Below, in pieces: positions 31,030 to 34,835 of a DNA stretch of 64,000 bases. The stretch's first letter is position 1. Each line of letters begins with the position of its first letter. The position numbers and the translations under genes are program-made. The notes beneath the pieces are model-generated. The model worked only from the letters and a program-made list of their open reading frames with translations. It was not told where the DNA came from and made no database searches. The stretch is taken from NCBI RefSeq assembly GCF_013249045.1, contig NZ_JABRWP010000001.1:1-64000 (forward strand). The letters are read 5' to 3'. This DNA comes from Winogradskyella eckloniae (GTDB taxonomy: Bacteria > Bacteroidota > Bacteroidia > Flavobacteriales > Flavobacteriaceae).

Positions 31030-31908
31030 TTATTGAACCATCATTTTTAGTTCACCTCTATATTTAGAAGCACTTTTTCCTGTAAATTCTTTAAAGAGTT
31101 TATTAAAATGTGAAAAATTATTAAATCCACATTCAAAACTTACATCAGCAATGCTCATTTGACTTTCGGATAATAATTTTGTTGCGTGTACTACTCTATA
31201 TTCGTTTACAAGCTTGGTAAATGTTTTACCTGTTACTTTCTTAAAGTAGCGACAAAACGCAGGAACCGTCATACTTACCTTCTCTGCAATCTCATCTAAA
31301 CTAATATGCTCTTTGAAATTTTGGTTAACATGCTTAAATACAATATCTATCTTAGCACTATCTTGTGGCTCGGTTTCAAAAGCAAAACCATCTACATTTA
31401 ATAAGGTATAATCTTCTGACTTAGCTAAACCATGCAATACTTCAAGTAGAATTAGAATTTTTTTAAATCCTTCCTTTTCATTAAGCTTTTCTATTTTAGC
31501 ACCAAGCTTCTGCTTTGTTTTTACTCCAAAAAGAATTCCTTTTTTAGAACGCTCAAATAAAAGGTTGATTTTTTCCATCTCTGGAATATCAAAAAAATGA
31601 TTTCCCAAAAACTCTGGTTTAAATTGTACTAAGGTTTCAGATCCATTAATAGTTAAACGGTCTGTAAAACCATTATGCGGTAAATTGGGTCCTATTAATA
31701 ATAACTGGCTATTGTTAAAATAAGATAAATGGTTTCCTATATGTCTTTTACCTTGACCTTTGTTAACATACACCAATTCTATTTCTGGGTGAAAATGCCA
31801 AAATGGTTTATTCTCACCTTTATATACATCCATTTTGTGTCGCCTTACTTTTAAGGAACTACCAAACTCAGGACTAATTTTTTCTAATGTAGGTTTTCTT
31901 GCTTTCAT
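31030..31908 (-). CDS. AraC-family regulator with N-terminal cupin
   Basis: Transcriptional regulator of 292 residues. The N-terminal cupin (about 25-110) has P-F-W-H-F-H-P-E-I-E-L-V-Y-V-N-K-G, a sugar/effector-binding barrel. The C-terminal double HTH (about 190-290) has S-L-D-E-I-A-E-K-V-S-M-T and the second helix pair ending C-G-F-N-N-F-S-H-F-N-K-L-F-K. It is divergent from the first of three small secreted paralogues, and the shared 265-nt region carries a 12-bp inverted repeat found again before the other two paralogues, so this protein is the natural candidate to bind it. Its own -7 box is at 31925-31932. Confidence 0.92.
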   Translation of the reverse strand: MKARKPTLEKISPEFGSSLKVRRHKMDVYKGENKPFWHFHPEIELVYVNKGQGKRHIGNHLSYFNNSQLLLIGPNLPHNGFTDRLTINGSETLVQFKPEFLGNHFFDIPEMEKINLLFERSKKGILFGVKTKQKLGAKIEKLNEKEGFKKILILLEVLHGLAKSEDYTLLNVDGFAFETEPQDSAKIDIVFKHVNQNFKEHISLDEIAEKVSMTVPAFCRYFKKVTGKTFTKLVNEYRVVHATKLLSESQMSIADVSFECGFNNFSHFNKLFKEFTGKSASKYRGELKMMVQ

Positions 31909-31924
31909 AACATATTAATAAGTG

Positions 31925-31932
31925 CAAATTTA
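31925..31932 (-). promoter_or_regulatory. -7 box of AraC regulator gene
   Basis: The complement of CAAATTTA reads TAAATTTG, a TAnnTTTG match 16 nt before the regulator ATG. Confidence 0.5.
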
Positions 31933-31977
31933 AGTTATATAATTCTTACATTCTATGTAAAATTACCAAAAACATAC

Positions 31978-32081
31978 ACAAAATTAACCTTATTACATAA
32001 TTAACACCCTCGAAAGGTTAATTTTGTATATAAATTTGACAAAATTGATGTTTTCTCCGACGAAATGCTGCTCTAAATTTG
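31978..32081 (+). promoter_or_regulatory. Composite promoter/operator of paralogue A
   Basis: In order: ACAAAATTAACC (31978-31989), a 26-nt gap, its perfect inverted copy GGTTAATTTTGT (32016-32027), a CAAAATTGA half-site (32040-32048), GATGTTTTCT (32047-32056), 17 nt, and the -7 box TAAATTTG (32074-32081). The same elements at the same spacings precede paralogues B and C. The 5' leader is about 85 nt. Confidence 0.75.
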
Positions 32082-32173
32082 CAGTGTTGATTTAATTGAA
32101 CTGTGACTCATATAATTGTCACTAAACGTAAAAGACAATTTTAATTTCAGTTCTCACTTAAAAACAAAACATT

Positions 32174-32731
32174 ATGAAAACATTATTTAAAAACATTTTA
32201 GTATTAGCAGTGATGTTAGGAACATGCACTACTTACGCAAATGCAACCTTAGACAATTCACCAACATTTAACAATGTAAATGAAGGCGATTTAATTTCTG
32301 TAACAGACGCAAAAGGGCAAATCGTTTATAACGGTCGCATTAACAACTCAGGTAACATTCAAAATCTTTATGATTTTTCTCAATTAAAAGATGGCGTTTA
32401 TACAATAGAAGTAAATAAAGATTTTGAAATTAAAATCAATAAGGTTCAGGTTTCAAACAACATCGTTACTTTTTTAGAAACATCTGAGACCACTATTTTT
32501 AAACCAGTTTTTAGATCAGAAGATTCTAAACTTATTGTTTCAAAATTAGCGATTGATACTGACGAGATGGAAATAGAATTATATTTTGGAAATGATTTAA
32601 TCCATACTGAAACAGTAAAAGGAAATGAAATAATAAACCGAGTTTACCAATTAGATAAATCAAGAAAAGGCGAATATACTGCGATCATTAAAGCAAATGG
32701 ACGTGTATTTGTTGAAGATTTCAAATTATAG
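32174..32731 (+). CDS. Small secreted two-module protein, paralogue A
   Basis: A 185-residue exported protein with a signal peptide ending T-T-Y-A-N near residue 22. The mature part looks like two beta-sandwich modules, each similar to the T9SS type A sorting fold: the first has ...VTDAKGQIVYNGRI... with Q-L-K-D-G-V-Y-T-I-E, and the second has M-E-I-E-L-Y-F-G-N and R-K-G-E-Y-T-A. It is the first of three tandem paralogues. It differs most from B and C (for example it ends F-V-E-D-F-K-L). Possible roles are an abundant surface or adhesion component; this is inference. Confidence 0.7.
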   Translation: MKTLFKNILVLAVMLGTCTTYANATLDNSPTFNNVNEGDLISVTDAKGQIVYNGRINNSGNIQNLYDFSQLKDGVYTIEVNKDFEIKINKVQVSNNIVTFLETSETTIFKPVFRSEDSKLIVSKLAIDTDEMEIELYFGNDLIHTETVKGNEIINRVYQLDKSRKGEYTAIIKANGRVFVEDFKL

Positions 32732-32762
32732 ATTATTGTTTACACATTAGTTTTATTAGTTG

Positions 32763-32791
32763 AAAAAGTGGGCCAGAAAGCCCACTTTTTT
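32763..32791 (+). terminator. Intrinsic terminator of paralogue A
   Basis: The stem AAAAAGTGGGC/GCCCACTTTTT with a 6-nt loop and a T run, 31 nt after the stop. The remainder of the 391-nt gap (32792-33122) holds only the promoter of paralogue B. Confidence 0.9.
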
Positions 32792-32994
32792 AATTTTATA
32801 AAGTAACAACCCATCACGTTATTCTTCGCTTAACTTTTTTTATTAAAAAGTGTCTATTACTATTTTACTCAACGTCCTTTTTCTTCTTAATTTTTTAATG
32901 TAACAAACACTTCATATTGGTCGCCCATTTTACCATGCGACTCAACGTTTTACTTAAAAACAACTGTTGCTTAAATTATCTCAAAAATATACTA

Positions 32995-33094
32995 TTTTAA
33001 CCTAATAGTTTTACCCAAATAATTATACGGTTAATTTTGTATAAAAATGTACCAAAATTGATGTTTTCTACAAAGCAAACTACCTTTAATTTTG
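32995..33094 (+). promoter_or_regulatory. Composite promoter/operator of paralogue B
   Basis: TTTTAACC (ending 33002), exactly 26 nt, GGTTAATTTTG (33029-33039), CAAAATTGA (33053-33061), GATGTTTTCT (33060-33069), 17 nt, and the -7 box TAATTTTG (33087-33094). Spacing is identical to paralogue A. The ATG is 28 nt further on. Confidence 0.75.
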
Positions 33095-33122
33095 TACCTG
33101 TAATCACTTAATACAATTTATT

Positions 33123-33680
33123 ATGAGAACAGTATTTAAAAAATTATTAGTAGTAGCATTAGTGTTTGGAACATTAACAAGCTACGCCAACGAAGTTGTA
33201 GATGTTAACACAACTATGAACTACGTAAAAAAAGGAAACCACATTTCTGTATCAGATGCTTTTGGAAAAATCATCTATAGTGGAGAAATTAACTATAACG
33301 GAAATCTTACATCACTATATGATTTTACCCAACTACAAAATGGTTTATACGATGTAGAAGTTACCAATGGCTATAAAATAGAAATTAGCACTATTGAAGT
33401 AATGAACAATAAGGTTTCTATCGTAGATGTTAACAAAACAGTAATCTTTAAACCTGTTGTTAGAAATGATAATTCTCAATTAATTATTTCTAAACTGGCT
33501 TTAGATCATGAAGATATGGAAATAGAACTTTTTTATAAAGGAGAACTAATCCATACAGAAACTGTTTCTGGAGAAACAATTCTAAACCGTGTGTACAAAT
33601 TAGATGCCACTCTAAAAGGAAATTACACAACTATTATTAAATCTAATAATAGAGTTTTTGTTAAAAACTTTAGAATATAA
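33123..33680 (+). CDS. Small secreted two-module protein, paralogue B
   Basis: A 185-residue paralogue of A and C, with a signal peptide ending near S-Y-A-N. It shares with C the core H/Y-I-S-V-S-D-A-F-G, N-R-V-Y-K-L-D and the ending R-V-F-V-K-N-F-R-I, so B and C look like the more recent duplicates. There are two beta-sandwich modules and no cysteines in the mature part. It has its own promoter and terminator, so each copy is an independent transcription unit. Confidence 0.7.
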   Translation: MRTVFKKLLVVALVFGTLTSYANEVVDVNTTMNYVKKGNHISVSDAFGKIIYSGEINYNGNLTSLYDFTQLQNGLYDVEVTNGYKIEISTIEVMNNKVSIVDVNKTVIFKPVVRNDNSQLIISKLALDHEDMEIELFYKGELIHTETVSGETILNRVYKLDATLKGNYTTIIKSNNRVFVKNFRI

Positions 33681-33716
33681 TTCCGTAGTCACTTCACAAT
33701 TATTATTAACCTATAT

Positions 33717-33747
33717 AAAAGGTAAGCGCAATGCTTACCTTTTTTTA
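33717..33747 (+). terminator. Intrinsic terminator of paralogue B
   Basis: The stem AAAAGGTAAGC/GCTTACCTTTT with a 5-nt loop and seven T, 36 nt after the stop. Beyond it, the 526-nt gap holds two further hairpins (33858-33882 and 33939-33962) and the promoter of paralogue C. Confidence 0.88.
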
Positions 33748-33857
33748 TTTATAGATTTTATAAAAGTGTTTATATAAGGTAGTACCTATTTAATAAATAC
33801 AGCGTCTTTTGCATTCTTAGTTTACTTAACACATATGAAGACTCCCAAACAATTACT

Positions 33858-33962
33858 TCCCATAATTTGTGTTTTTATGGGATCTATTTATCCTGTTGGT
33901 TGTTTTAAATGATAAATACCTACTTATATTGTGACATAACATAGATCATAAATTATCTATGT
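33858..33962. other. Two unexplained hairpins between paralogues B and C
   Basis: TCCCATAA/TTATGGGA (33858-33865 with 33875-33882, 9-nt loop) and ACATAGAT/ATCTATGT (33939-33946 with 33955-33962, 8-nt loop) lie in a long spacer with no good gene. They could belong to a small RNA or be remnants of a former unit. Confidence 0.35.
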
Positions 33963-34080
33963 GTATGTTATTAATGTCATTTATTATCAAAATTGTATAG
34001 TCAAAAACCAATATATAATTCTACATCTTTTTTGGGCCATTTTTAAAAGCTATGGAAAATTACCATTAATATATGTTATA

Positions 34081-34178
34081 TTAACCCATAATATAACACC
34101 TTTACCTTACATGGTTAATTTAACACACAAATAAGCCAATTTCGATGTTTTCTACACTTCAAATACCCTATATCTTTG
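34081..34178 (+). promoter_or_regulatory. Composite promoter/operator of paralogue C
   Basis: TTAACC (34081-34086), exactly 26 nt, GGTTAATTT (34113-34121), a weak third half-site, GATGTTTTCT (34144-34153), 17 nt, and the -7 box TATCTTTG (34171-34178). Spacing matches paralogues A and B, though the rest of the sequence has diverged. The ATG is 28 nt further on. Confidence 0.75.
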
Positions 34179-34206: not shown

Positions 34207-34764
34207 ATGAAAGCAGTATTTAAAAAAATCGCAATAGTAGCCTTAATGTTAGGAACATTTACAAGCTACGCTAACGAGATTGCAGAAGTAAAGTCTTCTT
34301 ATTACCGTGTTGAAAAAGGAAATTACATTTCTGTGTCAGATGCTTTTGGTGAAGTAATCTATAGTGCAGAAATCAATAATAATGGTAACTTAATTAAGCT
34401 TTTTGATTTTACTCAATTAAAAAATGGTGAGTATAACGTAGAAGTTACTAAAGATTTTGAAATTGAAGTTAACACTATATTAGTAAAAAACAATATTGTT
34501 TCCATTTTAGATTCTAACAAAAAAACAATTTTTACACCTGTAGTAAGAAATGAAGAGTCTAGAATATTAGTATCTAAATTAGCCTTAGATGCAGAAAAAA
34601 TGGAAGTTGAAATTTATTTTGAAGATGAGCTTATTCATACTGAATCAGTTGAAGGAGAAACTATATTAAACCGTGTGTACAAATTAGACGAAACACTTAA
34701 AGGGAATTACACAACCGTTATCAGGTCTAACGACAGAGTGTTCGTCAAGAATTTTAGAATATAA
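34207..34764 (+). CDS. Small secreted two-module protein, paralogue C
   Basis: The third 185-residue copy, with a signal peptide ending near S-Y-A-N. Like B it has Y-I-S-V-S-D-A-F-G in the first module and ends R-V-F-V-K-N-F-R-I. Identical length in all three copies, despite divergence, indicates constraint on the whole chain. It has its own promoter and terminator, and lies upstream of a convergent enoyl-CoA hydratase gene. Confidence 0.7.
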   Translation: MKAVFKKIAIVALMLGTFTSYANEIAEVKSSYYRVEKGNYISVSDAFGEVIYSAEINNNGNLIKLFDFTQLKNGEYNVEVTKDFEIEVNTILVKNNIVSILDSNKKTIFTPVVRNEESRILVSKLALDAEKMEVEIYFEDELIHTESVEGETILNRVYKLDETLKGNYTTVIRSNDRVFVKNFRI

Positions 34765-34801
34765 ATTGTTGTTTATATATTATTAGTTTATTTATTTAGT
34801 T

Positions 34802-34835
34802 AAAAAAGTGGGTGGTAGAGAACCCACTTTTTTTT
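34802..34835 (+). terminator. Intrinsic terminator of paralogue C
   Basis: The stem AAAAAAGTGGGT/ACCCACTTTTTT with an 8-nt loop and a T run, 37 nt after the stop. It can also work on the opposite strand. Confidence 0.9.

Follow-up and report, generated by a model that had tools for sequence, protein, structure and literature searches.

A probable two-sided operator with a fixed 26-bp spacer beside an AraC-family gene and DUF3244-like paralogues in Winogradskyella and other Flavobacteriaceae

The window analyzed here (64,000 nucleotides, positions 1-64000 of contig C10 in the 3.69-Mb Winogradskyella genome G000) contains three tandem paralogues for DUF3244-like proteins, each preceded by a module of about 110 bases in which the left half, some 40 bp long, is a mirror image of the right half across a 26-bp spacer. 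The module is conserved in related genomes with its spacing and dyad symmetry intact, and it co-occurs with the gene for an AraC-family regulator that, in the window, lies divergent from the first paralogue. With a probability of roughly 0.8, this operator of two halves is bound by the AraC protein, which regulates its own gene and switches on the target units. The components are of known kinds (AraC regulators, divergent autoregulation, TAnnTTTG promoters), and the whole is apparently a small, old gene-control circuit that is undescribed: the operator, its 26-bp geometry and the shared 3' element discussed below have no description in the open-access literature (which leaves most subscription papers outside) or in Rfam, and a search of the open-access literature on the regulator, and on the combination of DUF3244 and AraC, in Flavobacteriaceae or Winogradskyella returned nothing relevant. 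To our knowledge, few Flavobacteriaceae transcription factors have a known operator. In the present case the operator, with four half-sites around an invariant 26-bp spacer and divergent promoters placed symmetrically, can be read from the sequence alone, and the regulon that it would define (araC, DUF3244-like secreted proteins, tiny peptides outside any Pfam or NCBIfam family and possibly a small RNA) is testable, so that the function of a regulator carried by about half of the family genomes sampled becomes directly testable. The features of the window are as follows.

31030..31908, minus strand: AraC-family regulator, 292 aa, with a cupin-like N-terminal part and a C-terminal HTH_18; proposed binder of the operator
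31925..31932, minus strand: -7 element TAAATTTG of the araC promoter (sequence; conserved block; left -7 offset)
31954..31968, minus strand: copy A, left outer half-site (AAATTACC block; about 0.9 bits per column in 72 copies)
31975..31989, minus strand: copy A, left inner half-site, TTAACC side (72-copy conservation, dyad, sequence)
31990..32015, no strand: copy A, 26-bp spacer of variable sequence and fixed length (family-wide gap)
32016..32030, plus strand: copy A, right inner half-site GGTTAATTTTGTATA (72-copy conservation, dyad)
32037..32056, plus strand: copy A, right outer half-site running into GATGTTTTCT, -33 region (conservation, sequence)
32074..32081, plus strand: copy A, -7 element TAAATTTG (sequence; right -7 offset in relatives)
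32174..32731, plus strand: paralogue A, 185 aa, putative signal peptide, DUF3244-like
32967..33002, minus strand: copy B, left half-operator, degenerate outer part and TATACTATTTTAACC (sequence; internal-copy conservation)
33003..33028, no strand: copy B, 26-bp spacer (sequence)
33029..33069, plus strand: copy B, right half-operator to GATGTTTTCT (sequence; R1 E 7.2e-13)
33087..33094, plus strand: copy B, -7 element TAATTTTG (sequence)
33123..33680, plus strand: paralogue B, 185 aa
34051..34086, minus strand: copy C, left half-operator (TATGGAAAATTACC...TATGTTATATTAACC) (sequence)
34087..34112, no strand: copy C, 26-bp spacer (sequence)
34113..34153, plus strand: copy C, right half-operator to GATGTTTTCT (sequence; R1 E 1.8e-14)
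34171..34178, plus strand: copy C, -7 element TATCTTTG (sequence)
34207..34764, plus strand: paralogue C, 185 aa, two beta-sandwich domains in the model

The operator and its two promoters

The original prediction placed TTAACC-N26-GGTTAATTT before all three paralogues with a gap of exactly 26 nt, GATGTTTTCT 31 nt past the first G of GGTTAA, and TAnnTTTG 17 nt after GATGTTTTCT, and each of these distances holds in every copy: TTAACC starts at 31984, 32997 and 34081 and GGTTAA at 32016, 33029 and 34113 (copies A, B and C, respectively), GATGTTTTCT begins at 32047, 33060 and 34144, and the -7 elements begin at 32074 (TAAATTTG), 33087 (TAATTTTG) and 34171 (TATCTTTG). The flanks have diverged around the module, as had been noticed, with differing spacers and 5' leaders and constant half-sites and spacing. 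The inverted repeat reported for copy A is present, but it is 14 bp long rather than 12 bp (ACAAAATTAACCTT, 31978-31991 and 32014-32027). In a genome search for TTAACC-N26-GGTTAA, three of the four perfect matches are the window copies; the remaining one, at C23:263897, falls within an open frame of 404 codons and was rejected. Allowing one mismatch brings no enrichment (21 matches in the 3.69-Mb genome versus 41 for a reversed control pattern). Without mismatch, GATGTTTTCT-N17-TAnnTTTG occurs genome-wide only in the three window copies, and at two mismatches the whole genome holds no excess over the reversed control.

The same-spaced module precedes the paralogue family in related genomes (58 distinct regions). 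Across 72 non-redundant Winogradskyella copies (less than 85% alike, picked by consensus score), conservation begins about 40 bp to the left of the spacer, pauses in N26 and resumes from GGTTAATTTTGYATATAAATATGCCAAAATCGTTGTTTTCT to TAnnTTTG; the half-sites carry 0.9-1.1 bits per column, N26 0.2 and N17 0.4-0.5, with the qualification that selection by consensus score inflates the bits of the columns used. The resemblance is beyond chance because these copies keep the spacing and the half-sites while N26 and N17 vary. The left half, which reads GGTTAAAATAGTATATATTATTGGTAATTTTCTATAGGTTT on the opposite strand, is equally conserved in the internal copies (0.94/0.96 bits) and beside AraC (0.88/0.87 bits), and its outer half-site (0.94 and 0.88 bits per column, respectively) lies outside the selection consensus. 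The dyad symmetry of the halves scores 6.8 against a mean of 0.4 under column permutation (sd 1.7, p ~5e-5), and no other shift between -8 and +8 exceeds 1.8. As a direct repeat, a 21-bp offset outscores all others in the left half (3.63 versus 1.59 for the next) and in the two-half average (2.66 versus 1.21). It does not do so in the right half alone, where the outer half-site repeats the inner one poorly, its overlap with the -33 region having degraded it. The operator is read as four half-sites, two on each side, about 21 bp apart and facing outward, and the consensus of the better half-sites is GGTTAAWWTWGYATA. The expectation of multiple sites beside the -33 region is thereby retained, with their number put at four, in two outward-facing pairs, rather than two to three, the left outer half-site having gone unnoticed at first. 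Within the spacers of L202-L249, at least one inner TTAA is seen in 39 of 49, and outside Winogradskyella the TTAAC copies in the spacers are often about 11 bp apart.

The AraC-adjacent operator serves two promoters, which extends the original description. On the right, the promoter-side half-site meets the -33 region, the outer half-site running into G[AT]TGTTTTCT, 17 nt before TAnnTTTG; on the left, the block TAACTTTGCA, the araC -7 element, accompanies AraC-adjacent copies only and is absent from internal ones. The AraC-side operator was read in 49 Flavobacteriaceae genomes, nearly all from different genera, and the distance from the right -7 element to its GG is 58 nt in 45 of them, that from the left -7 element to the left GG being 57 nt in 36 and 58 nt in 7 (43 of 49). 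Internal copies have no divergent gene and yet retain the left half, which therefore probably does more than drive araC.

The Bacteroidota housekeeping promoter has a -7 element, TAnnTTTG, which was mapped in Flavobacterium psychrophilum (PMC9723704). This element, the -7 mark of a Bacteroidota sigma-A promoter, is shared by the three window copies and almost every relative. The -33 TTG, expected some 17-23 nt before the -7 element, is not found in the window copies, which read ATG at the upper end of that spacing (23 nt); most Winogradskyella relatives read TTG at this position. An ATG at -33 would fit a promoter dependent on an activator. The leader of copy A (32082-32173) is long and carries GAACTG...CAGTTC arms, those of copies B and C being without them, and leaders of this type were seen in many AraC-adjacent family genes.

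The AraC-family regulator

The C-terminal part of the AraC protein is a double helix-turn-helix (HTH_18, 78.6 bits with a cut-off of 33.6, E 4.4e-22; HTH_AraC, 48.9 bits with a cut-off of 26.6), and its N-terminal part has sub-threshold matches to AraC_binding (17.6 bits, cut-off 21.1) and Cupin_2 (18 bits, cut-off 27.2). The weak cupin match would suit a small-ligand signal. Mean identity over 109 homologues is 84% in the C-terminal domain versus 75% in the N-terminal part. Orthologues are found in 62 of 68 Winogradskyella genomes (AraC presence being taken at E <= 1e-50) and in 159 of 299 Flavobacteriaceae genomes, and the gene is divergent from the first unit in those Winogradskyella loci that were read far enough.

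The operator follows the regulator across genomes. In the 299 family genomes, a strong operator match (E <= 1e-5, from an R1 search run with strict filters) is found in 72 of the 81 with a close AraC orthologue (E <= 1e-115), in 1 of the 218 others and in none of the 140 that lack an AraC match, and the single genome among the 218 has AraC at E 8e-106. This co-occurrence gives p = 7e-58 with relatedness ignored, and such Fisher p-values overstate independence because the genomes are related. Within the genus, 52 of 62 AraC-bearing genomes contain a strong operator, versus 0 of 6 AraC-less ones. Beside AraC, the half-operators are exactly 26 bp apart in 47 of the 49 family genomes by score and in the other two by eye (the left half being degraded); plus-half scores range from 14.8 to 32.5, the 99% level after shuffling being 11.4. 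The constant gap does not come from a lack of insertions and deletions, because the distance from the araC start to the operator varies from 56 to 89. Further genomes vary the arrangement: a second AraC paralogue, 64% identical, stands divergent from a family gene of its own and has the same operator (G031, G033 and G068); AraC and the operator are present and the family ORF is absent in four genomes (G013, G062, G071 and G076); and a clade of six Winogradskyella genomes with an AraC 73-75% identical (G007, G020, G024, G027, G078 and G079) has an altered right half and a membrane peptide of about 40 aa as the divergent gene, left-half-like sequence still standing beside araC in several members. 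The original prediction had named the product of 31030-31908 as the most likely regulator beside the -33 region, and adjacency, the 49 genomes, the co-occurrence and the AraC paralogue all point to the same protein. The proposal of a defined regulon with a new operator is supported as well; the regulon appears small but would extend beyond the three paralogues.

AraC activators bind direct repeats about 21 bp apart, with a promoter-side site at -35, an arrangement that suits a dimer touching sigma. The AraC protein of the window may occupy all four half-sites, each half seating a side-by-side dimer, and the protein at the outer half-site would activate by contacting sigma or RNA polymerase. 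The left half beside araC would allow AraC to control its own gene, and the two halves may cooperate, since copies that lack a divergent gene still have their left half. The putative targets are araC itself, the secreted DUF3244-like proteins, a 35-aa peptide, a membrane peptide in relatives and the ORF-less units described below. At the divergent araBAD-araC promoter of E. coli, AraC at araI1-I2 likewise uses direct-repeat half-sites about 21 bp apart. The two systems share an AraC-family gene divergent from its target, half-sites about 21 bp apart in direct repeat, a promoter-side half-site by the -35 region (here -33) and divergent promoters that use one regulatory region; they differ in that the operator described here consists of two outward-facing pairs symmetric about a fixed 26-bp spacer, has an unrelated half-site sequence and promoters of the TAnnTTTG type, and is repeated as a whole ahead of each tandem target.

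The same protein could instead bind the operator as a repressor or looping regulator of both promoters, as the overlap of the right outer half-site with the -33 region, halves close enough to be bridged at 26 bp, and the retention of the left half where no divergent gene exists would allow; this is unlikely, since the ATG at -33 in the window copies suits a need for activation and a direct-repeat half-site adjacent to polymerase is generally typical of AraC activators. Other AraC-family genes are numerous, with many first-look candidates per genome, and one could imagine an unlinked regulator binding the module while the AraC gene is a mere neighbour, yet this is improbable given the strict co-occurrence in 299 family genomes, the AraC duplicate that has an operator and a target of its own, and the persistence of the operator at araC in genomes without the family gene. 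That the promoter likeness is a functionless relic of tandem duplication, as three tandem paralogues of common ancestry might suggest, is scarcely credible, being contradicted by the cross-genus comparison (the same pattern in 49 family genomes) and by spacers and 5' leaders that have diverged where half-sites and spacing have not.

DUF3244-like proteins and ORF-less units

Binding and activation by the AraC protein would place the three paralogues, which are mutually about 51-66% identical and begin with a signal-like N-terminal stretch, among its targets. Across relatives the family consists of putative secreted two-domain proteins of 185-200 aa in one to three copies. In Pfam, the best scores fall below the cut-offs for both DUF3244 (PF11589, up to 22.8, cut-off 25) and Por_Secre_tail (PF18962, 24.4, cut-off 27), and the protein sequence gives nothing below E 0.5 against the PDB. 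The model of paralogue C (pLDDT 80) aligns with the DUF3244 chain 3sd2 (BT_3571; Z 10.6, 83 residues, rmsd 4.2) and with the T9SS C-terminal domain of RgpB (5ag8; Z 8.8, 62 residues, rmsd 1.7). Foldseek alone finds no match to the model at E <= 0.001, the DUF3244 match having E 4.6e-3 and a TM-score of 0.71 by target length; the VIA second look ranks DUF3244 chains first and fourth. As modeled, paralogue C appears to have the DUF3244 beta-sandwich fold. The beta-sandwich is held in common with DUF3244 (BT_3571, 3sd2; BT_1867, 4g5a) and the RgpB C-terminal domain, whereas the proteins described here have two domains in 185-200 aa without larger cargo, and sequence scores below the cut-offs.

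Some operators are followed by ORF-less units, for which the predicted transcript runs 110-270 nt from the operator and ends in a conserved 3' element (ATTCATTAATAATTAGTTTAATGTCTTATTTAGTTTAGTTGGTAAAGTGAGC-TGTGGTG-GCTCACTTTTTTTT in many genera). A similar 3' element terminates the DUF mRNAs, including those of window copies A and C:

32723..32791, plus strand: 3' element and terminator after paralogue A (RNA model R2, E 1.0e-6)
34756..34835, plus strand: 3' element and terminator after paralogue C (RNA model R2, E 1.3e-8)

Within the genus, all R2 matches but one are at the AraC locus, and in a search of the 299 family genomes the 38 with matches at E <= 1e-5 all have a close AraC. Downstream of paralogue B (33681-33760) the 3' element is missing, and an unrelated terminator, AAGGTAAGC-GCAAT-GCTTACCTT, is seen. 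ORF-less units beside AraC, complete with 3' element and terminator, were observed in about 20 genomes (e.g., L138:1961-2240, L122 on the minus strand, L128:3569-3829, L213, L230, L222 and L211), and the tandem units of L272 are ordered ORF-less, DUF, DUF, DUF.

In the window, Rfam has no match at the gathering score except a tRNA located elsewhere, and no Rfam family reaches that score in the ORF-less loci. Sub-threshold Rfam matches, including BTncRNA_FopS in L243, were taken as chance. The ORF-less transcripts are a candidate small RNA (sRNA) absent from Rfam. Small RNAs can be released from mRNA 3' ends, CpxQ being an example. A broader proposal, offered tentatively, is that the ancient output of AraC is RNA as much as protein, in the form of an ORF-less sRNA that is also carried or released by the 3' ends of DUF3244-like mRNAs, one family-wide operator thus governing a mixed regulon of proteins, sRNA and peptides. 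A competing account, for which somewhat less than an even chance is allowed, holds that the ORF-less units are not RNA genes, but decayed remnants of deleted protein genes; the middle of the units is not conserved, and some Winogradskyella 3' elements open with what appears to be the end of a coding sequence (TTAGAATATAA, e.g., in L068). Decay is harder to reconcile with the operator, -7 element and 3' element that ORF-less units retain in some 15 genomes of the family beyond Winogradskyella, where they often come first beside AraC, or with the two units that have no ATG ahead of the 3' element. The FopS sRNA of Bacteroides (PMC11697453) and sRNAs of the CpxQ type resemble the proposed sRNA in having a 3' end and terminator common to mRNAs and ORF-less transcripts; the ORF-less units differ from both in matching no Rfam family at threshold, in belonging to a different bacterial order and in being known here from sequence alone.

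Small peptides behind the operator

Two kinds of small peptide gene follow the operator, and neither the 35-aa peptide nor the membrane peptide has a family in Pfam or NCBIfam. The 35-aa peptide (MKTNNRIVVESKVGTKTLKFGNASSLVWNTKRRFK; C21:121295-121399 in G000, locus L182) is conserved and cationic, lies behind a degenerate operator and is encoded by 16 of the 68 Winogradskyella genomes (G000 and 15 others), every one of them AraC-bearing. The hydrophobic membrane peptide of 35-45 aa, found in relatives, has the right half-operator only (genes at L068:7127, L075:7144, L079:6791, L137:3945 and L128:3965). Its gene either has the family cluster on one side and an enoyl-CoA hydratase gene on the other or, in one clade, is divergent from AraC, and it stands beside AraC in L121, L123-L126 and L129. 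The 35-aa peptide gene is present in two tandem copies in G033 (L195). In L249, a 36-aa peptide (MRATISKMPTEARKNSFFSNFKDSKRVRWASQRNYR) that by eye resembles the 35-aa peptide is encoded between the operator and the DUF-like gene.
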